64,000 nt of DNA from Hyphomicrobiales bacterium (lineage in GTDB: Bacteria > Pseudomonadota > Alphaproteobacteria > Rhizobiales > Rhizobiaceae), in contig UCLB01000001.1 of NCBI GenBank assembly GCA_900473205.1, forward strand, positions 186,001 through 250,000, given 5' to 3'. The translations under genes and the position numbers were made by a program. Shown piece by piece: positions 12,402 to 26,345 of this stretch; position 1 is the first letter of the stretch; each line of letters begins with the position of its first letter. The notes under the pieces are model-generated. The model was not told the DNA's origin. It ran no database searches and worked only from the letters and a program-made list of their open reading frames with translations.

Positions 12402-12929
12402 TCAGGATACAGCGGCGAACCGACCCAGCGCACCGCGCGCGAAGCACAATGGCTCTCCATCACGGTGGGCCGCGCGCAACACGCGACCGAGCAGGATAGA
12501 ATGATCACCGCCATCATAGATCGACGCGCGTTCGCATTCGAAACGGCTGAGTGTCCCTAGAATAACGGGAACACCTTCGGGGTTCGCATCCCACTCAAAC
12601 TCTTCGAAACCAAGTCCACCGCGTGTAAAGCGGCTGCTGAGATCGCCCTGATCTGCGGCAAGAACGTGGATTGCGAAATGCGTGGCGCCGGCGAAGAGGT
12701 CATGCCGGGACGATGTCTTCGCCGGAGACCACAGGATCAACGGCGGGTCGAGCGACACCGAAGAGAAGCTGTTGACCGTCATGCCGATTGGCCCGACTGA
12801 CGTCTGAGCCGTTACGACTGTGATGCCGGTCGGGAAATTTCCAAGCGCAGTGCGAAAGCTGCGTGTGTTTTCAGAATCCGGAACGAACCTGTGTTCATTG
12901 TGATTGTGCATGCTGGCAAGGGACGTCAT
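12402..12929 (-). CDS. smoA: FMN reductase of the sulfoquinovose monooxygenase system
   Basis: This 175-residue flavin-reductase-domain protein shows RTALGNFPTGITVVTAQ, GMTVNSFSSVSLDPPLILWS and a C-terminal H-S-I-L-L-G-R-V segment, typical of two-component monooxygenase reductases. It would supply reduced FMN to SmoC. Its ATG shares one base with the smoB stop (TGATG), so smoC, smoB and smoA are translationally coupled in that order. Assignment as smoA rests on the conserved order of the whole block, including the residue-level match of smoI. Confidence 0.88.
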   Translation of the reverse strand: MTSLASMHNHNEHRFVPDSENTRSFRTALGNFPTGITVVTAQTSVGPIGMTVNSFSSVSLDPPLILWSPAKTSSRHDLFAGATHFAIHVLAADQGDLSSRFTRGGLGFEEFEWDANPEGVPVILGTLSRFECERASIYDGGDHSILLGRVLRAAHRDGEPLCFARGALGRFAAVS

Positions 12930-13819
12930 CAGGGCACCTCGTGACCTTTTGCAAGCGTGTAAAGTTCAAACCATGTCTGTCGATCCATGACGACTTTGCT
13001 GGCCTGTGAAATCGTGGCAATACGCTCAAGATTGTTGGTGCCAAGCACGGGCAAAATCTTTGCCGGATGCCGCAGCAGCCAGGCGACGGCTACCGCAGCG
13101 CTGTCAACACCCTGATCCTGAGCAATTTTGGCCATGGTATCTGCCAGCGCCCCGCCCGCAGTCATCAGCGAACCGCCGCCAAGTGGGGACCAAGCCATAA
13201 CGGCCAGGTTTCGCTCTTGGAGATAGGCAAGATCGCCATTGGTGAAAGGTGACGTTTCAGCCAGACTGAGTTCGATCTGGTTCGTCACCAGTTCGTTTTC
13301 CATGTGCGTCTGCAGCAAGGAAAAATCCCATGGGCGGAAGTTCGACACGCCAACGCTGCGGACTTTACCGGAGGCGACCAGTTCATCGAGAGCCGCGCCG
13401 GTTTCATCCGGGTCCATCATTGGGTCCGGGCGATGGATCAAAAGCAAGTCGATGTGATCGGTCGCCATGTCCCGCAGTGATGCCTCGACGGAAGCATTAA
13501 TGTGGTCTGCCGACGTGTCGTAATGCTTGACGCGGGCGGCTGAATGGCGGCCTGCCGGTGCGACGATGCCGCATTTCGTTACGATTTCGACCTTGTCGCG
13601 GAGCGACGGAGAAGCTTTGAAGGCCTCGCCCAGGATTGCTTCTGCAGTATAGCCGCCATAGATATCCGCCTGATCGAGGGTTGTTATGCCCTGCGCAAGG
13701 CATGCTTCGATCTTGGCCTGAACGTGTTTCGCCGAGGTGTCCGTGTCATCGCCAATGCGCCACATGCCGTAGACGATGCGGCTGACAGACAGGTCGGAAG
13801 TAAGTTCGATGCGGTCCAT
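12929..13819 (-). CDS. smoB: aldo/keto reductase, 6-oxo-glucose reductase
   Basis: This 296-residue aldo/keto reductase has the catalytic set D and Y in TTLDQADIYGGYTAE, K in VTKCGIV and H in LLIHRPDP, plus the NADPH-site region LPVLGTNNLERI near the C terminus. In the smo pathway SmoB reduces 6-dehydro-glucose, the product of SmoC, to glucose using NAD(P)H. Both junctions with its neighbours are one-base overlaps (TAATG with smoC, TGATG with smoA), which shows tight coupling. On sequence alone it could be called YdhF-like; the context decides the name. Confidence 0.88.
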   Translation of the reverse strand: MDRIELTSDLSVSRIVYGMWRIGDDTDTSAKHVQAKIEACLAQGITTLDQADIYGGYTAEAILGEAFKASPSLRDKVEIVTKCGIVAPAGRHSAARVKHYDTSADHINASVEASLRDMATDHIDLLLIHRPDPMMDPDETGAALDELVASGKVRSVGVSNFRPWDFSLLQTHMENELVTNQIELSLAETSPFTNGDLAYLQERNLAVMAWSPLGGGSLMTAGGALADTMAKIAQDQGVDSAAVAVAWLLRHPAKILPVLGTNNLERIATISQASKVVMDRQTWFELYTLAKGHEVP

Positions 13820-14976
13820 TAGTGGCGTTCTCCAATTCCAAGGGGTGTTGCTGGTGTTGTTGCCGGCACGCGCCCGTGAATATGGGGCAGGGAACAGGTT
13901 TTCAACTGCGGCAAGACTTTGCGACCAAAATGTTCAGCCTCATCCAGATGCGGGTAGCCTGAGAAGATGAAGGCGCGAATGCCCATCTTCTGGTAGTCTT
14001 CGATAGCGCTCATGACCTGATCGGTAGAGCCGACCAAGGCAGCACCGCAGCCTGAACGCGCGCGTCCAATGCCGGTCCACAGGTTTGGCTCGATATAACC
14101 GAACTTGTCCGCCAGTTCGCGTGCTTTTGCCTGATGCGCAACGCCAAGCGAGATGCTGTCATGGGCGCGGTTGCGAATGAGCTGGCCATATTCATCGTCG
14201 AGCTTGGAAACGAGATGCTCGGCATACTCCTTGGCTTCCTGTTCCGTGTCGCGGACGATCATGTGAACACGAAGGCCGTAATCCAGCGTTCTGCCGTGGG
14301 CTTCTGCACGGGCGTGAACGGCACGCATGCGCTCGGCGAGTTGATCCTTCGTTTCCGGCCACATCAGGTAGACGTCGCACTGTGCGCCACAGAGTTCCAG
14401 AGCATCGGGCGAATAACCGCCAAAATAGAGCAGAGGACCGCCATTTTGCTGATAGGGGCGTGCGGGCTCGGTGGAAACGCCCTTGAACTGATAGATTTCC
14501 CCATCATGGTCGATCGTATCGCGGGTCCACGCCTGACGCAAGATTTCCACGACTTCGTGGCTGCGCCGGTAACGGAAAGCGCTGTCGGCGACTTCACCGG
14601 GAAAATCGGAACTGATGATATTCAGCGTCAAACGACCCTTAAGCATATGGTCGAGCGTGGCGATCGTACGAGCCAGCATGATGGGCTGCATTTCGCCACA
14701 GCGGATCGCAGCCAGCATGTTGATCTTGTCGGTAATGGGCGCGCAACCGGCAACAAAGCTCATTGTATCCTGTCCGACCTGGTAGGAGGATGGACACAGG
14801 ATATTGCGAAATCCCAGCTCTTCGGCTTTCTTGACGATGGTGGAGCAATGATCCCAGCTTGAGCGTAAGGACCCGTCGGGAACGCCGAGATAGGCGTAGT
14901 CATCGGAGCAGAGTGCTGAAAACCAGGACACTTCCGCAGCATCGAGATCAGCAGACGTTACAGGCACAATCGTCAT
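13819..14976 (-). CDS. smoC: FMNH2-dependent sulfoquinovose monooxygenase
   Basis: This 385-residue luciferase-like monooxygenase is close to the alkanesulfonate monooxygenase SsuD: SWFSALCSDDYAYLGVPDGS at the N terminus, an AAIRCGEMQPIMLARTIATLDHMLKGRLTLNIIS core and GSTDQVMSAIEDYQKMGIRAFIFSGYPHLDEA near the end. SmoC splits the C-S bond of sulfoquinovose, giving sulfite and 6-dehydro-glucose. ATG 14976 is chosen because GAGGAGGAT lies just upstream; a longer reading from 15015 has no such site. It is the first gene of the smoCBA transcript. Confidence 0.9.
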   Translation of the reverse strand: MTIVPVTSADLDAAEVSWFSALCSDDYAYLGVPDGSLRSSWDHCSTIVKKAEELGFRNILCPSSYQVGQDTMSFVAGCAPITDKINMLAAIRCGEMQPIMLARTIATLDHMLKGRLTLNIISSDFPGEVADSAFRYRRSHEVVEILRQAWTRDTIDHDGEIYQFKGVSTEPARPYQQNGGPLLYFGGYSPDALELCGAQCDVYLMWPETKDQLAERMRAVHARAEAHGRTLDYGLRVHMIVRDTEQEAKEYAEHLVSKLDDEYGQLIRNRAHDSISLGVAHQAKARELADKFGYIEPNLWTGIGRARSGCGAALVGSTDQVMSAIEDYQKMGIRAFIFSGYPHLDEAEHFGRKVLPQLKTCSLPHIHGRVPATTPATPLGIGERH

Positions 14977-15006
14977 GAAATCCTCCTCACAGGACGTTGC
15001 CCAATT

Positions 15007-15047
15007 AACTAACATCAGGTATTTAGTAAATCAATAATGTATCAATT
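15007..15047 (-). promoter_or_regulatory. smoCBA promoter with putative SmoD element
   Basis: On the minus strand AATTGATACATTATTGATTT (15047-15028) contains two ATTGAT copies 11 bp apart. The second supplies a possible -35 TTGATT (15034-15029), followed after 16 bp by TTAGTT (15012-15007). The 20-bp element is 18/20 identical to the one at 15902-15921. Confidence 0.6.
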
Positions 15048-15077
15048 ATTTCCCCCGCGCACCGGAAGGCATTGAAA

Positions 15078-15782
15078 ATGCGGAGTTCCAAAGGAAGTTT
15101 GCCAGTGTATCTCCAGATCGCCGAGACGCTGGTGCGGGATATAACGGCTGGCCGCCTGATCGACGGGGAGAAGCTTCCGCCGGAGCGCGAGATGGCGACG
15201 ACGCTGGGGATTGCGGTTGGAACGCTGCGAAAGACGCTGGCCGAGCTCCACAGTCGCGGATTGCTGGAGCGCATTCAGGGATCAGGTAATTACATCCGCG
15301 CCGTTACCGACCCAAAAAGTGTCTATGCCATGTTCCGCCTTGAATTGGTGGCGGGTGGCGGCTTTCCAACTGCAGAAATTCTGAGCGTCAGCCGAGAGGT
15401 CAAGCCTGCGGAACTGCCTGCCTTCGGTGCGTCTAAAGAAGGGCACCGTATTCGTCGGATAAGACGCATTGCGGGGCAGGCTGCGGCGATCGAAGAAATT
15501 TGGCTGGACGGATCCTACATAGAAAGGGTCGCCGCCGAAGATTTGTCAGAATCGCTCTACCTCTACTACCGCACGCGGTTGGGGCTATGGATCGCAAAAG
15601 CGGAAGACCACATCGGCCTCGGTCATGTGCCGGAGTGGGCGCCGGAGGCATTCGGCCCGAAAAGCGGCGAGCCCCTTCCTCATATATTGCGCATTAGCCA
15701 CTCCCATGAAGGTGCCATGGCCGAGGTTTCGCATACATGGTACGACCCTGATATCGCCCGTTACGTCAATAGACTGAGGTAG
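15078..15782 (+). CDS. smoD: GntR/HutC family regulator of the smo genes
   Basis: This 234-residue protein has an N-terminal GntR winged helix (SLPVYLQIAETLVRDITAGRLIDGEKLPPEREMATTLGIAVGTLRKTLAELHSRGLLERIQGSGNYI) and a C-terminal UTRA ligand domain of the HutC group. ATG 15078 is used because GGAAGG ends nine bases before it; the TTG at 15072 is too close. It lies between the leftward smoCBA and rightward smoE-I transcripts, as expected for their shared regulator. The ligand is presumably sulfoquinovose or a glycoside. The shared element at 15028 and 15902 is its best candidate binding site. Confidence 0.88.
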   Translation: MRSSKGSLPVYLQIAETLVRDITAGRLIDGEKLPPEREMATTLGIAVGTLRKTLAELHSRGLLERIQGSGNYIRAVTDPKSVYAMFRLELVAGGGFPTAEILSVSREVKPAELPAFGASKEGHRIRRIRRIAGQAAAIEEIWLDGSYIERVAAEDLSESLYLYYRTRLGLWIAKAEDHIGLGHVPEWAPEAFGPKSGEPLPHILRISHSHEGAMAEVSHTWYDPDIARYVNRLR

Positions 15783-15859
15783 GCGCTTGCGCGGATCTTC
15801 GACTAGACCGGCATTAATTTGCCTCATCGCGCGTTTTAAACGAAATCAAAATTCTCCTG

Positions 15860-15881
15860 TGAAATCAAAATGTAGATTTCA
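15860..15881. promoter_or_regulatory. inverted repeat upstream of smoE
   Basis: TGAAATC (15860-15866) and GATTTCA (15875-15881) form a perfect inverted repeat with an 8-bp centre in an AT-rich stretch. A further copy of GAAATCAAAA lies at 15842-15851. It may be an extra regulator or activator site. Confidence 0.35.
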
Positions 15882-15901
15882 ATTTTAAACAGAATAAATT
15901 A

Positions 15902-15942
15902 AATTGATACACCATTGATTTCCTTAAATCCTTGCGTATGCT
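15902..15942 (+). promoter_or_regulatory. smoE-I promoter with putative SmoD element
   Basis: AATTGATACACCATTGATTT (15902-15921) carries ATTGAT at 15903 and 15914, one helical turn apart. A possible -35 TTGATT (15915-15920) is followed after 16 bp by TATGCT (15937-15942). The layout is the same as at the smoC promoter. Confidence 0.6.
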
Positions 15943-15992
15943 CAATTTTAGAGGAGCCCGAAGCAACATCGCCGAGGGTTGGGTGATTGTGA

Positions 15993-18366
<2,374 letters not shown>

Positions 18367-18428
18367 AACGTCTGGATCGCCTCCTTCCTGATTACGGGGA
18401 TGGGCCTGCTCTCCAACTGCTCCGACCG

Positions 18429-18457
18429 CTGGAGGCGACGCATCGCATCGCCTCCAG
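18429..18457 (+). other. stem-loop between smoF and smoG
   Basis: CTGGAGGCGA pairs perfectly with TCGCCTCCAG around a 9-nt loop. There is no T-run. It probably protects the smoF 3' end or causes partial termination. Confidence 0.6.
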
Positions 18458-18483
18458 CCCTTACAATGTCTCGGAACGAAACC

Positions 18484-19419
18484 ATGGCAATGACAACCCC
18501 ATTCAAAGCGGATGACAAGCAGTCGGCACCCTCGCCAAGCTGGACGCGGTGGCTTGACCTGAGCGACCGTTCGCTGGCGGTCCTGCTTCTGGCACCTGCG
18601 GCACTCCTTCTGGCGTTGATCATCGTCTATCCGGTATGCCGACTGATCTATACGAGCTTTTTCAGCCTATCGCTGACATCTGGACTACCAGCCGCATTCG
18701 TGGGGTTTGAAAACTACCAGCTGATGATCGAAGATCCTGTGTTCTGGGAAACGACCTGGAACACCGTGCTGATCACCCTCATCACCGTGCCGGGCGCGCT
18801 GCTGATCGGCCTAGGTCTGGCGCTGATGGCAAATCTTCCATTCGGCATGCAATGGCCCGTTCGCCTGTCTCTGCTCATTCCGTGGGCGCTGCCGCTATCC
18901 TTTGCCGGACTGATCTTTGCGTGGTTCTTCCATTCCGAATACGGCGTCGTCAACGATGTTCTCAACCGGCTCGGCTTTGAAGGGATTATCTGGTTCAATT
19001 CGCCGAACTGGGCCTTCGCCGCCATCTGCCTGACCATTATCTGGAAGACATCATCCTTCATGGCGCTGATCATTCTGGCGGGCCTGCAAACGATTCCGCG
19101 CTCGCTCTACGAAGCAGCCGATGTTGATGGTGCCGGCAGACTGCGGCAGTTCTTCGAGATCACCCTGCCACTGCTCAAGCCGTCCATCGTCGTCGCCCTG
19201 ATTTTCCGCACCATCACGGCGCTTCAAACCTTCGACATTCCCTACATGATGACCGGCGGCGGGCCGGGCACGTCTACCGCAACGCTTGCCATGTATATCC
19301 ACCAGAACACCGTCTCGTTCCTCGATCTCGGCTACGGCTCAGCACTTGCCGTCGTCATGTTCATACTGTCGATGTGTGTGACCGCCGTGTATCTGCGCAT
19401 GATACGGACGAAGGAGTAG
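18484..19419 (+). CDS. smoG: ABC transporter permease (MalF type) for sulfoquinovosyl glycerol
   Basis: This roughly 311-residue permease has six predicted membrane helices, starting [20 protein letters not shown]. The coupling loop [25 protein letters not shown] contacts SmoE. ATG 18484 gives [12 protein letters not shown]; an ATG at 18466 is possible but has no ribosome binding site. The stop is five bases before the smoH ATG. It pairs with SmoH as the channel of the importer. The smoG/smoH names are by order. Confidence 0.88.
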
Positions 19420-19424
19420 CAGCC

Positions 19425-20279
19425 ATGAGCACGACGACAGCCTCCGGTTCGATGTCCTTCCTGTCCGGCAAACCACTGCGTTTTATCGCCGCTGGCATTT
19501 TGCTCATCAACGGCATGTTTCCGGCCTTGTGGATTCTCTTTACCTCGCTGAAATCGGAAGCGGAGCTGACGGCAAAGCCGATTACGTGGATACCACACGC
19601 GCCGACGCTACAGAACTATATGCAGGCCTTTTCCGACCAGCCTTTGCATATCTTTCTGTTCAACAGCTTCATGGTCGCGCTGCTATCGACAGCGCTGACC
19701 TTGCTGGTTTCAGTTCTCGCAGCCTATGCGCTGGCGCGATTGAACCTCGCCTATCGCGGTTTGATCCTGTCGCTCATCATTGCGGTTTCCACTTTTCCGC
19801 TGGTCACGCTGCTCGTGCCACTGTTTGAAATCATGCGGGCGCTCAATCTTCTCAACAGCTGGACCGCGCTGGTCTTGCCCTACACAGTGCTGAGTTTGCC
19901 GGTCTGCACGCTGATGCTCGTCTCGTTTTTCGAAGGCATTCCGCGCGATCTGGAAAACGCCGCCATGATCGATGGCTGCACGCGGCTGGGAGCTTTGTTC
20001 AAAGTCGTGGTGCCTCTCTGCGCACCCGGTGTGTTTACCGCCGGTATTCTCGCCTTCGTCAACGCTTGGGATGAGTTTCTGCTGGCTCTGTCCTTCAACT
20101 CCAATCCCAGCTTGCGCACTCTGCCCGTTGGCATTCAGCTGTATCAGGGCGAGTTCGCATTCCCCTGGCCGGTCATTTCCGCCGCCCTCGTCGTCGGCAT
20201 CGTGCCGGTAGCCATTCTCATCGTCATCTTCCAGGAGCGTGTCGTCTCCGGCCTGACGGCGGGCGGCATCAAGGGATGA
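19425..20279 (+). CDS. smoH: ABC transporter permease (MalG type) for sulfoquinovosyl glycerol
   Basis: The protein has 284 residues and six membrane segments. Its coupling loop is LENAAMIDGCTRLGALFKVVVPLCAPG, and it ends ERVVSGLTAGGIKG, the classic MalG C terminus. AAGGAG lies nine bases before ATG 19425. It is the partner of SmoG. Confidence 0.9.
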   Translation: MSTTTASGSMSFLSGKPLRFIAAGILLINGMFPALWILFTSLKSEAELTAKPITWIPHAPTLQNYMQAFSDQPLHIFLFNSFMVALLSTALTLLVSVLAAYALARLNLAYRGLILSLIIAVSTFPLVTLLVPLFEIMRALNLLNSWTALVLPYTVLSLPVCTLMLVSFFEGIPRDLENAAMIDGCTRLGALFKVVVPLCAPGVFTAGILAFVNAWDEFLLALSFNSNPSLRTLPVGIQLYQGEFAFPWPVISAALVVGIVPVAILIVIFQERVVSGLTAGGIKG

Positions 20280-20331
20280 GTGCGTTTGCGCTGAGAACTA
20301 ACTGATATCAAAGACTTTGAAAGACTGTGGA

Positions 20332-22323
20332 ATGAAACTCGAGCAGACACCGACCGGCTTTACGCTGTCCCTGAATGGCCGGACGATCCTTGATCACAGC
20401 GATACATCACCTGCAATCTTTGTCGGTTACGGTGAAGAGCGCATGGACATGTATCGCGGTAATTTCGACATCGAAGATTATGTCATCGAGCGCCGTGGTC
20501 TCGCCCATGCCCAGATCGAAGGCAACCGCGTCTTGCTATCCGACGCTGCAGGACTTCCCGCTCGTCTCATCCTCAAAGTCGTTGAAAACGCCATCGAGTT
20601 TGAAGCAAATGATCCAAAACTCAACCGCTTCTGGATTCGTATCAAGGCCGATGCCGACGAACATGTATGGGGTGGCGGCGAGCAGATGTCATATTTTGAC
20701 ATGCGCGGACGCCGTTTCCCGCTGTGGACATCCGAACCCGGTGTCGGTCGCGACCCGGTAAGCGAGATTACCTTCAAGGCCAATGTCAAAGACAGGGCCG
20801 GGGGCGATTACTTCAATACCAACTATCCGCAGCCGACCTATGTATCGTCGGCGCTCTATGCCCTACATGTGGACACAACTGCCTACTCGGTCTTTGACTT
20901 CCGGCAGAAAGCTTTTCATGAGATCGAGATATGGGCAATTCCTGACCGCCTCGAGTTCTTTGCTGCTCCGACATTCGTGGAACTGGTAGAGGCGCTTTCC
21001 CTGCGCTTTGGGCGACAGCCGCCGTTGCCTGATTGGGTTTATAACGGCGCGATCATCGGCTTAAAGGATGGCGAAAATTCCTTCGCTCGTCTCGACGTGA
21101 TCCGTAATGCCGGTGTGCAAGTATCCGCCCTTTGGTGCGAGGACTGGGTCGGTCTGAGACAGACATCGTTTGGCTCACGGTTGTTTTGGGATTGGCAAGC
21201 CAACGAGACGCGCTATCCGGGTCTTCGTAAGAAGATCAGCGAATTGCATGAAAGCGGCATCCGCTTTATGGGCTATGTGAACCCGTATCTCTGTGTCGAT
21301 GGGTCGCTGTTCCAAGTTGCGGAAAAGGCGGGCTATTTCGCAACGGATGGAGCCGGAAAAACCGCCCTTGTGGATTTCGGCGAATTTGATTGTGGTGTGG
21401 TCGATTTCACCAATGAAGCGGCGGCGGACTGGTTCGCAGAAGAGATCATCGGCAAGAATATGCTGGACTTTGGTCTTTCCGGCTGGATGGCGGATTTCGG
21501 CGAATATCTGCCGATCGATGTGCATCTGTCGAATGGGATTGATGCCAAGCTGATGCACAATGCCTGGCCTACACTGTGGGCCGAGGTCAACGCAAAGGCC
21601 GTTGCGTCACGCGATAAAACCGGTGACGCCCTGTTCTTCATGCGCGCAGGATTCACCGGCGTTCAGAAGCATTGCCCGCTTCTGTGGGGCGGTGACCAGT
21701 CGGTTGATTTCTCGCGCCACGATGGTCTTGTCACCGTCATCTGCGGCGCACTGTCATCTGGCCTGCTGGGCAACGCCTATCACCATTCCGATATCGGCGG
21801 CTACACCAGCCTGTTCGGCAATGTCCGCACGCCGGAGCTTTTGATGCGCTGGGCCGAAATGGCGGCGTTCACTCCCGTCATGCGGACCCATGAAGGAAAC
21901 CGTCCTCGCGAAAATGTTCAGATCGACCAGGACCCGGAAGTCCTGTCGCATTTCGCCCGAATGACGCGGATTTATCGACATCTTGCGCCCTATCTCAAGT
22001 CTCTGTCGGTAGAAGCTGTGGAGCGGGGTCTAGCCGTGCAACGCCCGCTTTTCCTGCATTACCAGCAGGACCGGCAAACCTACACCATTCAGGACAGTTA
22101 CCTTTACGGTGCCGACATGCTTATCGCGCCGGTGTGGCAAGCTGCGAAAGAAGAGCGCGCCGTCTATCTTCCCCAGGGTGAGCGCTGGGTACATGTCTGG
22201 ACGGGCGAGGAATTTGCGGGCGGCGCAGAAATCCAGATCGCGGCACCGCTCGGTCAACCGCCTGTTTTCTACAGAGCCGGTTGCGCACAAGAGGCTCTGT
22301 TCGCGGGTCTGCGGGATATCTGA
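20332..22323 (+). CDS. smoI: sulfoquinovosidase, GH31
   Basis: This 663-residue glycoside hydrolase of family 31 hydrolyses sulfoquinovose glycosides in the cytoplasm (no signal peptide). It aligns by eye with E. coli YihQ. The sulfonate-binding residues are present: R283 and W286 in GSRLFWDW and Y491 in HHSDIGGY. The nucleophile is D388 in GWMADFGEYLP and the acid/base is D455 in LWGGDQSVDF. As I recall, these numbers agree with those reported for the Agrobacterium enzyme. The start is ATG 20332; a TTG 15 bases upstream adds five residues without benefit. It is the last gene of smoEFGHI. Confidence 0.95.
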   Translation: MKLEQTPTGFTLSLNGRTILDHSDTSPAIFVGYGEERMDMYRGNFDIEDYVIERRGLAHAQIEGNRVLLSDAAGLPARLILKVVENAIEFEANDPKLNRFWIRIKADADEHVWGGGEQMSYFDMRGRRFPLWTSEPGVGRDPVSEITFKANVKDRAGGDYFNTNYPQPTYVSSALYALHVDTTAYSVFDFRQKAFHEIEIWAIPDRLEFFAAPTFVELVEALSLRFGRQPPLPDWVYNGAIIGLKDGENSFARLDVIRNAGVQVSALWCEDWVGLRQTSFGSRLFWDWQANETRYPGLRKKISELHESGIRFMGYVNPYLCVDGSLFQVAEKAGYFATDGAGKTALVDFGEFDCGVVDFTNEAAADWFAEEIIGKNMLDFGLSGWMADFGEYLPIDVHLSNGIDAKLMHNAWPTLWAEVNAKAVASRDKTGDALFFMRAGFTGVQKHCPLLWGGDQSVDFSRHDGLVTVICGALSSGLLGNAYHHSDIGGYTSLFGNVRTPELLMRWAEMAAFTPVMRTHEGNRPRENVQIDQDPEVLSHFARMTRIYRHLAPYLKSLSVEAVERGLAVQRPLFLHYQQDRQTYTIQDSYLYGADMLIAPVWQAAKEERAVYLPQGERWVHVWTGEEFAGGAEIQIAAPLGQPPVFYRAGCAQEALFAGLRDI

Positions 22324-22394: not shown

Positions 22395-24287
22395 TTAAAT
22401 CACCACGTCGGTGAAGGCGCGAATTTCGACGACGGCGCTGGCCGAACGCTCCAGCGCCTCGCGCATGTTGACCCTGGATACGAGTTCAGGATGCCGGACA
22501 AGATCGCTTTGCTGTATGGCACTGAAATCGAGGCCTGTCCTCACCGCGAGGTCTTCCAGTGTAACCTGATAGAGCCGGAACGGATCGAGATCGAGTGTTT
22601 CGAGGTCGTTGAGAAGGTTCTCCTGCGAGAGAACGAAGCTCGCGCAGCGCAGTTTTCCGTCTGTGCCGACATAACCAATGGCCTTCCAGAAGGCGCGCGG
22701 AATCTGCGCGCCACGGTAGGGAATGTCATCATCGCCGAAAATCGGCCCGCCCTGCACTGAAAGTCGGATGTCCTGAAGCTCCGCCTGCTCAAAGATGAGG
22801 TTTTCGAGCCCGCCCCAAAGGCCTTTGCGGGAGGACTGATTGTAACGCTCATGCTGAGGCGCAATGTTCGTGAAGTAAAAGGAGTCGCTGTTTGCCTGTC
22901 TGGCCTCGGCAACAGAGCCCCAGCATAAGTCTGCGCGCCGGGCGATATGGCCGCGGTCTATACGATTGTCTACGTAGAACTCGTCTCCAAGCTGGTACTT
23001 TGCATCGATGCGAGGATCCAGCGAGAAGCCGTTTCTCGGCAACTTTACCATTTTGGCGCCATCGATGTTCCAGGCTACATAGCGTGCCATACGGCGCTTG
23101 GAACTGAGGCACACAGAGAAATGCGTGTAGGGAATGCTCTGACCGCGACCGAAATTGACGGCATCGCGTTTTAGCGAAGTGGACAATCCCGGTTCTGGGA
23201 AGGCAAGGCCAAGAAAATCAGCGTCATAGCCAGAGCGTGGAACAGCCGTTTCCATGCCCTCGCTGGCTTCGGCGCCGTCGGTTTCCGGCTCCAGAATGAA
23301 GTCCAGTTTCTTCTGAACCGATGCGGGATAGCACGCCAGCGCATGTTCATCCGCAACGCCATCACTTTCGCCAGCGAAATGAAGTCCAGCGAAGATATCG
23401 GTTGCTTTACCCTTGTCGAAAATGAGCCATGCGGAACCGGAATCTCCACCCTTGCTGATCTCGCCATCATCGGGCAACGCATCCGGGTCGGGGCCGATCT
23501 CGAAGCAGCCGATTGCCTGTTCTCCCGCTGGCGAACCATAATTGATTTTGGCCATGACATCGACGCGGCGAACAATTCCTTGGGTGTTTGCCGTGGTGCG
23601 TCCGGATTTGATGACCTTGTCGCCCAACGAAACCCGCGCCATCCGCGTTGGCACCACGTCCAGTGCATAGACGGATCGATCATAATCTCGAAGGCGGATG
23701 CGAGCGAGCGCGCAATCTCCGGCGGCACCCAGATGGCTTCGCAACAACTGTCCCGCACCGTTTTGCGATGTGTTGTTGTCGTCATAGGAGCCGGGTTGGA
23801 CAATCGTGTCACCGATGCGACCCATATTACCGTGAAGCACATGCCAGTTCGATAGAATGCAAGGCGTGCCAGTAGACCGGTCAAACACGATGAGTCCAAT
23901 CGTGCCAGCCGTTTCCGCGATGTGAGAAACACTGACGCCCGGTCTTATCGGGTCGATACGCTGTTTGCGCAGATCAATCTGCTCCGGTTCGACGAGCTTG
24001 TAAGACGGAGCATAGGATCGCTCGATGACATCCGTCGGTACAGCTGTGCCATCGACATCGATTGTTTCAGGCACGCGGGTCGTTGACAGGGACTCGAGCG
24101 CCGACTCCCCTTTTTGTCTGACAGTAAATTGCAGGCAGACTGGCCCGTTGCCGTTTTTCAGACCAATGCCGACGGAGGTTATGTTTGGATCGTTGAGATA
24201 ATCAGCACCCTTTGCCCGAATAAATCGGCGCAAATCGTCTTCGCTGACACTGGTAGATTTGGCACGCCCGGTTGTCTTTCGAACCAT
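22395..24287 (-). CDS. trypsin-like serine protease fused to DNA/RNA non-specific endonuclease
   Basis: This 630-residue protein has two apparent catalytic domains. Residues about 120-330 look like a chymotrypsin-fold protease: H149 in LSNWHVLHG, D191 in AAGDCALARI and S283 in KGGDSGSAW. Residues about 385-600 match the Serratia/NucA endonuclease family: D-R-G-H at 444-447, then FTNIAPQHERYN with N483 as metal ligand and WGGLEN. There is no signal peptide, so both activities would be intracellular unless it is secreted by another route. GGAGGGG precedes ATG 24287. Its neighbours on both sides are sugar-catabolism genes, so it is an orphan insertion. Role unknown; defence, nutrient scavenging or protease-controlled nuclease activation are all possible. 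Confidence 0.85.
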   Translation of the reverse strand: MVRKTTGRAKSTSVSEDDLRRFIRAKGADYLNDPNITSVGIGLKNGNGPVCLQFTVRQKGESALESLSTTRVPETIDVDGTAVPTDVIERSYAPSYKLVEPEQIDLRKQRIDPIRPGVSVSHIAETAGTIGLIVFDRSTGTPCILSNWHVLHGNMGRIGDTIVQPGSYDDNNTSQNGAGQLLRSHLGAAGDCALARIRLRDYDRSVYALDVVPTRMARVSLGDKVIKSGRTTANTQGIVRRVDVMAKINYGSPAGEQAIGCFEIGPDPDALPDDGEISKGGDSGSAWLIFDKGKATDIFAGLHFAGESDGVADEHALACYPASVQKKLDFILEPETDGAEASEGMETAVPRSGYDADFLGLAFPEPGLSTSLKRDAVNFGRGQSIPYTHFSVCLSSKRRMARYVAWNIDGAKMVKLPRNGFSLDPRIDAKYQLGDEFYVDNRIDRGHIARRADLCWGSVAEARQANSDSFYFTNIAPQHERYNQSSRKGLWGGLENLIFEQAELQDIRLSVQGGPIFGDDDIPYRGAQIPRAFWKAIGYVGTDGKLRCASFVLSQENLLNDLETLDLDPFRLYQVTLEDLAVRTGLDFSAIQQSDLVRHPELVSRVNMREALERSASAVVEIRAFTDVVI

Positions 24288-24450: not shown

Positions 24451-25521
24451 TTACTCGATCCGCATGCCGGTATCCGCATCGAACAAATGGATATGTTCCT
24501 GCGCGAAATCCAGACCGATCGTCTGACCACCGCTTATCGGAACGCGTCCGTTGACCACCACGACACATTCGGGCGTCGTTGCAGTGGTGACGTAAGTCGT
24601 TGAACCAGTGGATTCCACCATGGCGACGGGCACGTTTAGCGCCCCCGCCATGTTGTCAGAGATCGTCAGATGTTCGGGTCTCAAGCCCACCACAAGTTTG
24701 CGATTGGCAGGAGTGGTGCGTTCCAGACTGATCGTCTGTGGCTCTCCAAGCTCCAGAACGAGTGTTTTCCCATCCGCTCCCGCGGTTGCCGGAATGAAGT
24801 TCATGGCAGGCGAACCAATGAAGCCTGCAACGAAGCGGTTCACGGGTCGGTCGTAGAGCTCGAGCGGCTGTCCCTGCTGTTCTATCACGCCCTGGCGCAT
24901 CACGACCACATGGTCGGCCATCGTCATGGCTTCGATCTGGTCATGCGTGACGTAGACCGATGTTGCACCCAGCCGGTCATGCAGCGCCCTGATTTCCTTG
25001 CGCATATGGACGCGTAGGGCGGCATCGAGGTTGGACAAGGGTTCGTCGAACAGGAAGGCCTTTGGGTTGCGGATAATGGCGCGGCTCATCGCGACGCGCT
25101 GACGCTGCCCGCCGGAGAGTTCGCGCGGATAACGATGCAGAAGGTCGGACAGGCCGGTAATGGCCGCTACTTCCTCTGCCGCTTTTCTGGCTTCTGCCTT
25201 TTTGGTCCCGCGAATGCGCAGACTATAGGTCAGGTTTTCCTCGACCGTCATGTGCGGATAAAGCGCATAGGACTGAAATACCATCGCCAGATCGCGTTTA
25301 CGCGGGGGCACGTTGTTCATGCGCTCCCCAGCAATCACGAGATCACCCGCCGAGATTGATTCAAGCCCTGCAAGTGAGCGCAGCAGCGTAGACTTGCCGC
25401 AGCCGGATGGCCCGACGAGCGCTACAAAGCCACCCTTGCGAATGGTGAGATCGATGTTTTTCAGCGCGTGATAGGCACCGTAATATTTGTTGACGCCTGA
25501 CAATTCGATTTGATTGGTCAT
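24451..25521 (-). CDS. sugar ABC transporter ATPase (UgpC/MsmK type)
   Basis: This 356-residue ATPase has Walker A GPSGCGKST, Q-loop VFQSYALYPH, signature LSGGQRQR, Walker B FLFDEPLSNLDAALR and switch THDQIEAMTMADH. A C-terminal TOBE region includes VGLRPEHLTISD. ATG 25521 overlaps the preceding permease stop (ATGA) and follows GGGAG, so the upstream in-frame extension is not used. It is the last gene of the leftward operon that begins at 30629. Confidence 0.92.
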   Translation of the reverse strand: MTNQIELSGVNKYYGAYHALKNIDLTIRKGGFVALVGPSGCGKSTLLRSLAGLESISAGDLVIAGERMNNVPPRKRDLAMVFQSYALYPHMTVEENLTYSLRIRGTKKAEARKAAEEVAAITGLSDLLHRYPRELSGGQRQRVAMSRAIIRNPKAFLFDEPLSNLDAALRVHMRKEIRALHDRLGATSVYVTHDQIEAMTMADHVVVMRQGVIEQQGQPLELYDRPVNRFVAGFIGSPAMNFIPATAGADGKTLVLELGEPQTISLERTTPANRKLVVGLRPEHLTISDNMAGALNVPVAMVESTGSTTYVTTATTPECVVVVNGRVPISGGQTIGLDFAQEHIHLFDADTGMRIE

Positions 25522-26345
25522 TTGAGAGCTCCCGATGTGAGGCCGGAAACGATGCGGCGCTGCAAGAGGACAAAGATGGCAAGGATCGGGGTCACATACA
25601 TGGTGGCATAGGCCATGATGTTGTTCCATTCGCTGGTGTTCGGGCCCATGAAGGAGTTGAGGCCGACGCTTGCGGGCTGCAACTCGACATTCTGGATCAT
25701 CGACTTGGAATAGACGAACTCTCCGAAGGCCTGCATGAAGATGAGAATGGCGCTGACGAGAATGCCGTTGCGCGCCAGTGGCAGCACGATGTTGAAAAAC
25801 GCGCCGATGCGGGAATTGCCATCGACCAGCGCAGCCTCCTCAAGCTCCATCGGCACGGCCATGAAGGTGGCTCGAACCAGTACGACGAAGAAGGGCATGC
25901 TTTTTGCCGCAATGGCCAGAATGACGGCAAAGCGGGGATAATCCAGCAAACCAACCTGCGAGAAGCCAACGAAGATCGGTGTGATCATCAAGGATGCCGG
26001 AAGAACCTGCAGCATCAGGATAAGGAAAAGCCCGATATCCACCCAGCCATTGCGATACCGCGCCAAAACATAGGCGCAGCCGGTGCCGAGAACGGCGATT
26101 AGCGCCACCGAGCCAAAGGCGATCAGCGTGGAATTCCAGAGATAACGCCCCATGTTCCGGCTTTCCCAGACATAGACGAAGGTGTTCCACTGCGCTGTCG
26201 ATGGCCAGAAGCTTGGCGGGCTGGCAAACATCTCGGACCCTGTTTTCAGCGCCGTGATATACATCCAGTAAAGCGGAAAGAGATAGATCGCCGCCATGAT
26301 GATGGCGATTGCGAGCATCATTCGATTTCTGCTGGTATCACTCAT
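25518..26345 (-). CDS. sugar ABC transporter permease (MalG type)
   Basis: The protein has 275 residues and six membrane segments. Its coupling loop is LEEAALVDGNSRIGAFFNIVLPLARNG and the C terminus is RRIVSGLTSGALK. Both ends overlap their neighbours by ATGA, showing translational coupling with the other permease and the ATPase. Confidence 0.92.
   Translation of the reverse strand: MSDTSRNRMMLAIAIIMAAIYLFPLYWMYITALKTGSEMFASPPSFWPSTAQWNTFVYVWESRNMGRYLWNSTLIAFGSVALIAVLGTGCAYVLARYRNGWVDIGLFLILMLQVLPASLMITPIFVGFSQVGLLDYPRFAVILAIAAKSMPFFVVLVRATFMAVPMELEEAALVDGNSRIGAFFNIVLPLARNGILVSAILIFMQAFGEFVYSKSMIQNVELQPASVGLNSFMGPNTSEWNNIMAYATMYVTPILAIFVLLQRRIVSGLTSGALK

Follow-up and report, generated by a model that had tools for sequence, protein, structure and literature searches.

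A NAL1-type protease fused to an Endonuclease_NS nuclease in Rhizobiaceae, a candidate intracellular conflict protein

Results and Discussion

A single gene of the window (the whole stretch of Rhizobiaceae DNA that was analysed, 64,000 nucleotides) encodes a predicted NAL1-family serine protease joined, in one chain of 630 residues, to a non-specific nuclease of the Endonuclease_NS type. The protein may be a stand-alone, horizontally moving intracellular conflict protein, directed against phages or mobile elements, in which the protease controls a latent nuclease; the chances of this reading are considered about even.

Organization of the Gene

The open reading frame is located on the minus strand, from an ATG at 24287 to a stop codon at 22395; the coordinates agree with those of the initial annotation, and the strand is (-). 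Twelve homologues from alphaproteobacteria and actinobacteria, 53-81% identical to the query, align along the whole length of the protein; the gene is therefore neither a fragment nor an artefact. The full-length alignment contains 13 rows, the query and its 12 homologues, with the N-terminus of L030 missing at a contig end. The H149/D191/S283 triad and the D444-R445-G446-H447/N483/E495 residues are invariant in 13/13 rows. A pairing of protease and nuclease with these active sites goes far beyond chance. The following features were assigned:

22395..24287, minus strand: whole gene, putative NAL1-family protease fused to Endonuclease_NS nuclease, 630 residues (open reading frame and alignment with 12 homologues)
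23973..24245, minus strand: N-terminal domain, residues ~15-105, putative counterpart of the NAL1 N-terminal domain (AlphaFold2 model matches NAL1 from model residue 9; Pfam NAL1_N in 5/13 aligned protease halves, the query not among them)
23289..23954, minus strand: predicted serine protease domain, residues ~112-333 (fold matches to NAL1, Z 27.8, and to alpha-lytic/streptogrisin-type proteases, Z ~20-21 over 112/114-333)
23841..23843, minus strand: codon of H149, triad (invariant in the 13-row full-length, 13-row protease and 45-row alignments)
23715..23717, minus strand: codon of D191, triad (invariant in both 13-row alignments, nearly invariant in 45 rows)
23439..23441, minus strand: codon of S283, nucleophile in GGDSG (invariant in the 13-row full-length, 13-row protease and 45-row alignments)
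23232..23288, minus strand: variable linker, residues ~334-352 (low conservation; dN/dS 0.07-0.75 for 331-352 where computable)
22488..23231, minus strand: Endonuclease_NS (NucA-type) nuclease with the GYDxxFL lead segment of its clade, residues ~353-600 (Pfam E 1.2e-40; 19-row nuclease alignment)
22947..22949, minus strand: codon of H447 in DRGH (invariant in 13 full-length and 19 nuclease rows)
22839..22841, minus strand: codon of N483 (13/13 full-length rows, 18/19 nuclease rows)
22803..22805, minus strand: codon of E495 (invariant in 13 full-length and 19 nuclease rows)

The Protease Half Belongs to the NAL1 Family

Residues 19-315 match the PHROG 'protease' profile (E 4.8e-27); the protease half has no Pfam match above the cut-off and no NCBIfam match. 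The His/Asp/Ser triad is present in all 13 rows of an alignment of protease halves that contains the query and relatives as distant from it as 27% identity. When a profile of these 13 halves was compared with the PDB, rice NARROW LEAF 1 (NAL1) was matched with an E-value of 3.7e-22, against 8e-9 for the best other protease. The AlphaFold2 model of residues 1-346, calculated from 45 sequences, reached a pLDDT of 87.6 and a pTM of 0.86. In a Foldseek search with this model, chains of NAL1 fill the first 33 ranks, and structural alignment with VIA-align gave a Z of 27.8 and an rmsd of 3.6 over 310 residues. This match spans model residues 9-338, so that the likeness extends to the entire protease half, N-terminal domain included, even though NAL1 is a plant protein without a nuclease and shares only ~16-17% identity with the query. 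Pfam NAL1_N was found in five and Nal1_C in four of the 13 protease halves. The query's own half matches neither, which reflects a detection limit and not a defining trait of the family. With the modelled fold, the N-terminal domain and the His-Asp-Ser triad all present, the protease half is assigned to the NAL1 family. The initial annotation, which had proposed structure prediction and a profile search for both halves, had correctly recognized a protease and a nuclease in one chain and had missed the NAL1 family.

Rice NAL1 acts in leaf development and is a hexamer; several of its PDB entries contain 6 chains. Free-standing NAL1-like proteases also exist among the database matches, viral contigs included. 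A trypsin-like specificity for Lys/Arg is doubtful because the position six residues before the catalytic serine, which we take to be the specificity position by chymotrypsin numbering, is Ile277 and not Asp.

The Nuclease Half

The Pfam Endonuclease_NS profile covers residues 380-589 (E 1.2e-40), a match that makes the assignment of this half certain. Against the PDB, the family profile retrieved two nucleases that we take to be those of Anabaena and Serratia, together with mitochondrial EXOG and EndoG; all of them share the fold family and the active-site motif. By analogy with Serratia nuclease, H447 is presumably the general base of the DRGH motif and N483 presumably a metal ligand. When 19 diverse nuclease halves, that of the query among them, were aligned, no row departed from the GH of DRGH or from the residues at the N474 and E495 positions; at the N483 position, 18/19 agree. 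The core is preceded by a lead segment, GYDxxFL...P, whose G, F and P are invariant in 19/19; nucleases carrying it are treated here as one putative clade within the Endonuclease_NS family. The bacterial nucleases of Serratia and Anabaena are secreted enzymes. The query, in contrast, has this lead segment added, and no signal peptide was seen.

In agreement with the initial annotation, which had noted no signal peptide, a plain hydropathy scan of the first 60 residues revealed neither a signal peptide nor a membrane segment: the best 19-residue mean is 0.59 in the query and at most 0.94 among all 13 aligned proteins. The dN/dS ratios were calculated over seven pairs and are rough, several pairs being saturated at silent sites; where computable, the protease gave 0.03-0.06 in four pairs and the nuclease 0.04-0.13 in five, against 0.07-0.75 for the linker (331-352) and 0.02-0.72 for the tail (601-630). 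Both enzyme halves appear to be kept by purifying selection, while the linker is freer. In the 13-row alignment, the linker ranks with the most variable regions of the protein and contains no conserved cleavage site.

Related Nucleases and Their Proteases

Outside the NAL1 fusions, 32 loci with a nuclease of this clade were examined: four plasmid loci and 15 and 13 stretches from two further retrievals. The set is non-random and omits L039 (open reading frame in two broken frames), several weaker matches from the genome and class searches, six matches in long open frames of 713-784 residues (L217, L218, L220, L224, L227, L228) and further weaker ones; the counts are therefore not frequencies. 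A fused trypsin-type protease was found in 12/32 loci. Eight of these fusions are confirmed by Pfam Trypsin_2 (L037, L038, L071, L073, L074, L077, L078, L245), and four were recognized by motif and reading (L072, L075, L079, L246). At five loci, a separate protease gene adjoins the nuclease. In L076, it encodes a zincin (Reprolysin_4 above the cut-off, M10 just below), and in L239, a protein with S8 and Trypsin_2 matches is encoded 387 bp upstream. In L243 and L244, an M4 protease is accompanied by its inhibitor emfourin (the latter scanned in L244); L242 belongs to the same genus and was assigned an M4 neighbour through its near-identical start and neighbours. A further protease gene lies next to two of the fused members, S8 at L077 and papain-like at L075.

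In L242-L244, the free-standing nuclease is divergent from the M4 protease, which is protealysin-like (propeptide match below the cut-off), and from emfourin. Protealysin is described as an intracellular protease that cuts RecA (PMC9505478). A C-terminal region read as a lamin-tail domain occurs in six members (L066, L067, L068, L070, L247, L248) that form their own group on the tree; the Pfam LTD match comes from L066, the one locus scanned.

No protease was seen nearby in the remaining 15/32 loci by simple motifs and by eye, with Pfam on some neighbours; as this look was crude and the contigs of L067-L069 and L248 are short, a protease may still be present at some of these 15 loci. A general dependence of the nuclease clade on a protease was rejected, because the 15 loci, L035 and L036 among them, show none nearby. 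The relatives of the nuclease thus occur fused to or beside proteases of several kinds, and many occur without.

The NAL1 fusions group together on both trees (support 90/81 on the first, SH-aLRT 95 on the second), consistent with one origin of the NAL1-nuclease pairing within the sample, as far as these sequences indicate. The two protease-less members L035 and L036 fall inside this clade, most simply through loss or replacement of the protease, and L036 may be a fragment cut by a transposon. In L035, from a Paracoccus marcusii plasmid, a segment of ~140 residues of no recognized kind is found in place of the protease. The trypsin fusions are not one clade on either tree; a single origin is compatible with the starred branches.

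Comparison with Known Systems

A NucA nuclease and a trypsin-like protease have been predicted to form a conflict system, System 3, by Kaur et al. (2020, eLife, PMC7159879), a fact that the initial annotation had missed. System 3 is described there as mostly alphaproteobacterial, with a proteolytic cascade proposed to deploy the nuclease; some members contain EAD1, a STAND ATPase or extra trypsin/NucA genes, and the core also occurs without EAD1. The query shares with it the combination of a NucA-type nuclease and a trypsin-fold protease in a single chain. Unlike System 3 as described there, it is a single gene, and its protease is of the NAL1 family with an N-terminal domain, not Trypsin_2. 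The locus L071 (6528-16344) resembles System 3 (PMC7159879) in layout, with a trypsin-NucA fusion followed by four genes on the same strand: one weakly lysozyme-like, two Trypsin_2 and an AAA_16/NB-ARC-like ATPase, with the lysozyme and ATPase matches below the Pfam cut-offs.

A second comparison is offered by LypC (ACL94044.1), a peptidase-endonuclease fusion of 662 residues from the CARD-NLR-like system LypABC of Caulobacter crescentus (2026, PMC13236601). Going by its published description, it likewise carries the peptidase ahead of the endonuclease, with its catalytic residues S296, H471 and N505 spaced much like S283, H447 and N483 of the query. Unlike the query, beside which no such genes were seen, LypC acts with LypA and LypB. 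S296A abolished lysis and H471A/N505A had no effect, and a homologue from C. endophyticus has no endonuclease domain (PMC13236601).

By analogy, the LypC results caution that the indispensable half can be the peptidase. In the present family, too, the protease might do the effector's work, by cleaving a host protein or relaying a signal, with the nuclease as an accessory, structural or back-up part. The existence of free-standing NAL1-like proteases agrees with this. However, purifying selection on the nuclease is comparable to that on the protease, its catalytic residues are kept in 13/13, and those clade members that lack a half are nuclease-only (L035 and, if not a fragment, L036); a protease effector is considered unlikely.

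Tuck et al. (2025, Science, PMC12799240) describe pro-nuclease/protease pairs in Hachiman, AVAST, Lamassu, DRT and canu, and proteolytic activation of the defence nuclease is shown there for the MBL nucleases of Hachiman and AVAST, which are unrelated to the query. The coupling of a protease to a nuclease, with proteolytic activation as the model, is shared with the query; the MBL-fold nuclease is nonetheless encoded by a separate gene in the pairs of that report, whereas Endonuclease_NS is fused in cis in the query. From the prediction of Kaur et al. and the proteolytic activation of Tuck et al., the coupling idea is therefore already known. What was not found described is the membership of the protease in the NAL1 family, the encoding of both halves by one gene and the variety of protease partners; among the matches listed in searches of open-licence PMC papers, preprints excluded, no title or abstract opening linked a nuclease with a NAL1-type protease.

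The initial annotation had suggested regulated toxicity, in which the protease may free the nuclease by cutting its own chain. A reading as a conflict system has backing in published work (Kaur et al. 2020; LypC, 2026). Release by self-cleavage is not supported, because the linker is one of the least conserved regions and lacks a conserved site, relatives of the nuclease occur without a fused protease, and the nuclease active site of LypC is dispensable.

Distribution and Genomic Context

The family is patchily distributed. Some match was obtained in 20 of 101 genomes searched (the own genome and relatives), and full-length loci are present in 5/39 genus genomes, one of them with two copies (6 loci). 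A sample of 385 genomes of the class contained some match in 22, with only the window's own locus full-length. Among 72,556 plasmid records, 87 have a match, five of which cover at least 80% of the query: three from Rhizobium, one from Tsukamurella and one from Streptomyces, the last two at 53% identity to the query. GC content gives the gene no foreign mark, and promoter and terminator scans showed no excess over shuffled controls.

In the window, a sugar ABC transporter ATPase gene (24451-25629) lies 163 bp upstream of the fusion gene on the same strand, and a sugar-hydrolase gene ending at 22323 is convergent with the fusion gene; both functions were read by eye. The hydrolase is present in 35/39 genus genomes (E ≤1e-100) and the ATPase in 33/39 (E ≤1e-140), and the fusion gene lies within 1.5 kb of neither flank at the 29 other genus loci of each (0/29 per flank). 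No functional link to the sugar genes is evident, as the initial annotation had remarked, and the gene appears to move alone, in a patchy and nomadic manner. The locus to the left (12402-22323) contains, by eye, a flavin reductase, an aldo-keto reductase, a monooxygenase, a GntR regulator, an ABC transporter and a sulfoquinovosidase; it is presumably a sulfoquinovose (smo) pathway.

No CARD-peptidase or NLR-like ATPase gene was recognized next to the fusion, its neighbours read by eye being the sugar ABC operon and the sugar hydrolase. Likewise, no paralogue, lysozyme, STAND ATPase, extra trypsin/NucA gene or other effector was recognized beside it by reading and PADLOC. PADLOC, run at 1e-10 on 30 proteins chosen from the window between 7.9 and 45.9 kb, brought no recognizable defence gene beside the window copy; the matches at this threshold (mad3 in four proteins, mad8 in two, ATPase-Toprim_I-B in one) are read as generic ABC or regulator matches. 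This lack of defence genes, together with two degradative activities in one chain, would suit an enzyme that breaks down nucleoprotein for housekeeping or scavenging. Such a role is nevertheless improbable: the hydropathy scan showed no signal peptide, full-length loci occur in only 5/39 genus genomes, and of the 22 matches in 385 class genomes only the window's own is full-length.

Elsewhere, the neighbours vary. In two Rhizobium loci (L027:6963-7952, L032:6960-7952), the fusion is preceded by a tyrosinase-family gene whose end lies 45-48 bp upstream. This gene is internally deleted in L026, reduced to a C-terminal remnant in L028 and was not found in the remaining sequences (13 sequences, some loci twice; L030 without upstream DNA). 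A conserved tyrosinase neighbour as the key to function was rejected, the gene being intact in L027 and L032 only; it is not required, because elsewhere it is a remnant or was not found. In R. anhuiense (L026), an open reading frame with a Patatin match starts 5 bases past the stop codon; upstream are a DUF4435/AAA protein at ~1 kb, an AbiEii homologue at ~7 kb and, within 1 to 7 kb, a UvrD-type protein. These neighbours of L026 speak for a conflict role. Patatin matches are close to two members only, L026 and Streptomyces canus (L034), where the patatin gene is upstream of the fusion with a transposase in between.

Two loci bear on delivery into other cells by a type VI, type IV or contractile injection system, a reading in which the protease domain would serve for processing or as a helper. 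In S. canus, a same-strand gene run starts ~1 kb after the fusion and includes, ~8 to 15 kb on, baseplate J and an AHH nuclease-domain protein; in R. leguminosarum (L027), downstream genes on the opposite strand were read by eye as a VirB-type secretion cluster. Ten proteins of the S. canus run, however, gave only AHH and a sub-cut-off Dit_like match with Pfam, with no sheath or tube, the window copy lies among sugar genes (by eye), and the neighbours listed include no partner or immunity-like gene that the family shares. A delivered toxin is thus rather improbable, scarcely more probable than a scavenging enzyme.

Viral sequences were searched as well. Scans with the full-length family and with the query protease half revealed no relative, and a search of phage records gave one weak nuclease match (24% identity). 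With the broad alignment of 13 protease halves, 62 IMG/VR loci (L113-L174) were matched, mostly of ~330 residues; in the stretches examined, none of these viral NAL1-family proteases has the Endonuclease_NS nuclease with it (0/62). Among them, a LAGLIDADG domain is found on L172 and a SpoIID domain on L131.

Proposed Role

The reading as a conflict protein joins the observed folds and families, the active sites, the selection on both halves, the absence of a visible export signal, the patchy, nomadic spread and the repeated association with proteases. In the proposed mechanism, the NAL1-fold protease, probably an oligomer as in rice NAL1, shares its chain with a non-specific DNA/RNA nuclease, which would stay latent until the protease is switched on by a signal of infection. 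Once active, the protease would unleash the nuclease, either by a cut in or near it or by cutting a restraining host or phage protein, and the freed nuclease would destroy the nucleic acids of the cell. We infer the latency, the trigger, the cleavage target, the death of the cell and the role in phage defence. Against the conflict reading stand the lack of a defence neighbour and of a linker site, the protease-less members and the dispensable nuclease site of LypC.

More speculatively, and with little probability attached to it, the protein might act as a one-gene immune switch, in which a hexameric protease of the NAL1 type would itself recognize a protein of a phage or mobile element and turn on the fused nuclease in cis, without an NLR, a CARD or a second messenger. 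As viral contigs carry free-standing NAL1-type proteases, the fused pair could also take part in an arms race between related proteases. The Rhizobium tyrosinase-family product could be a second substrate of the protease, by analogy with insects, in which phenoloxidase is activated by a protease.

The fusion links a protease family of crop leaf architecture to a bacterial nuclease with a likely role in cell conflict, and it places one nuclease clade together with proteases of several unrelated families. As a single protein of 630 residues, it would allow the coupling of protease and nuclease to be studied in a far simpler setting than NLR systems of several genes offer.
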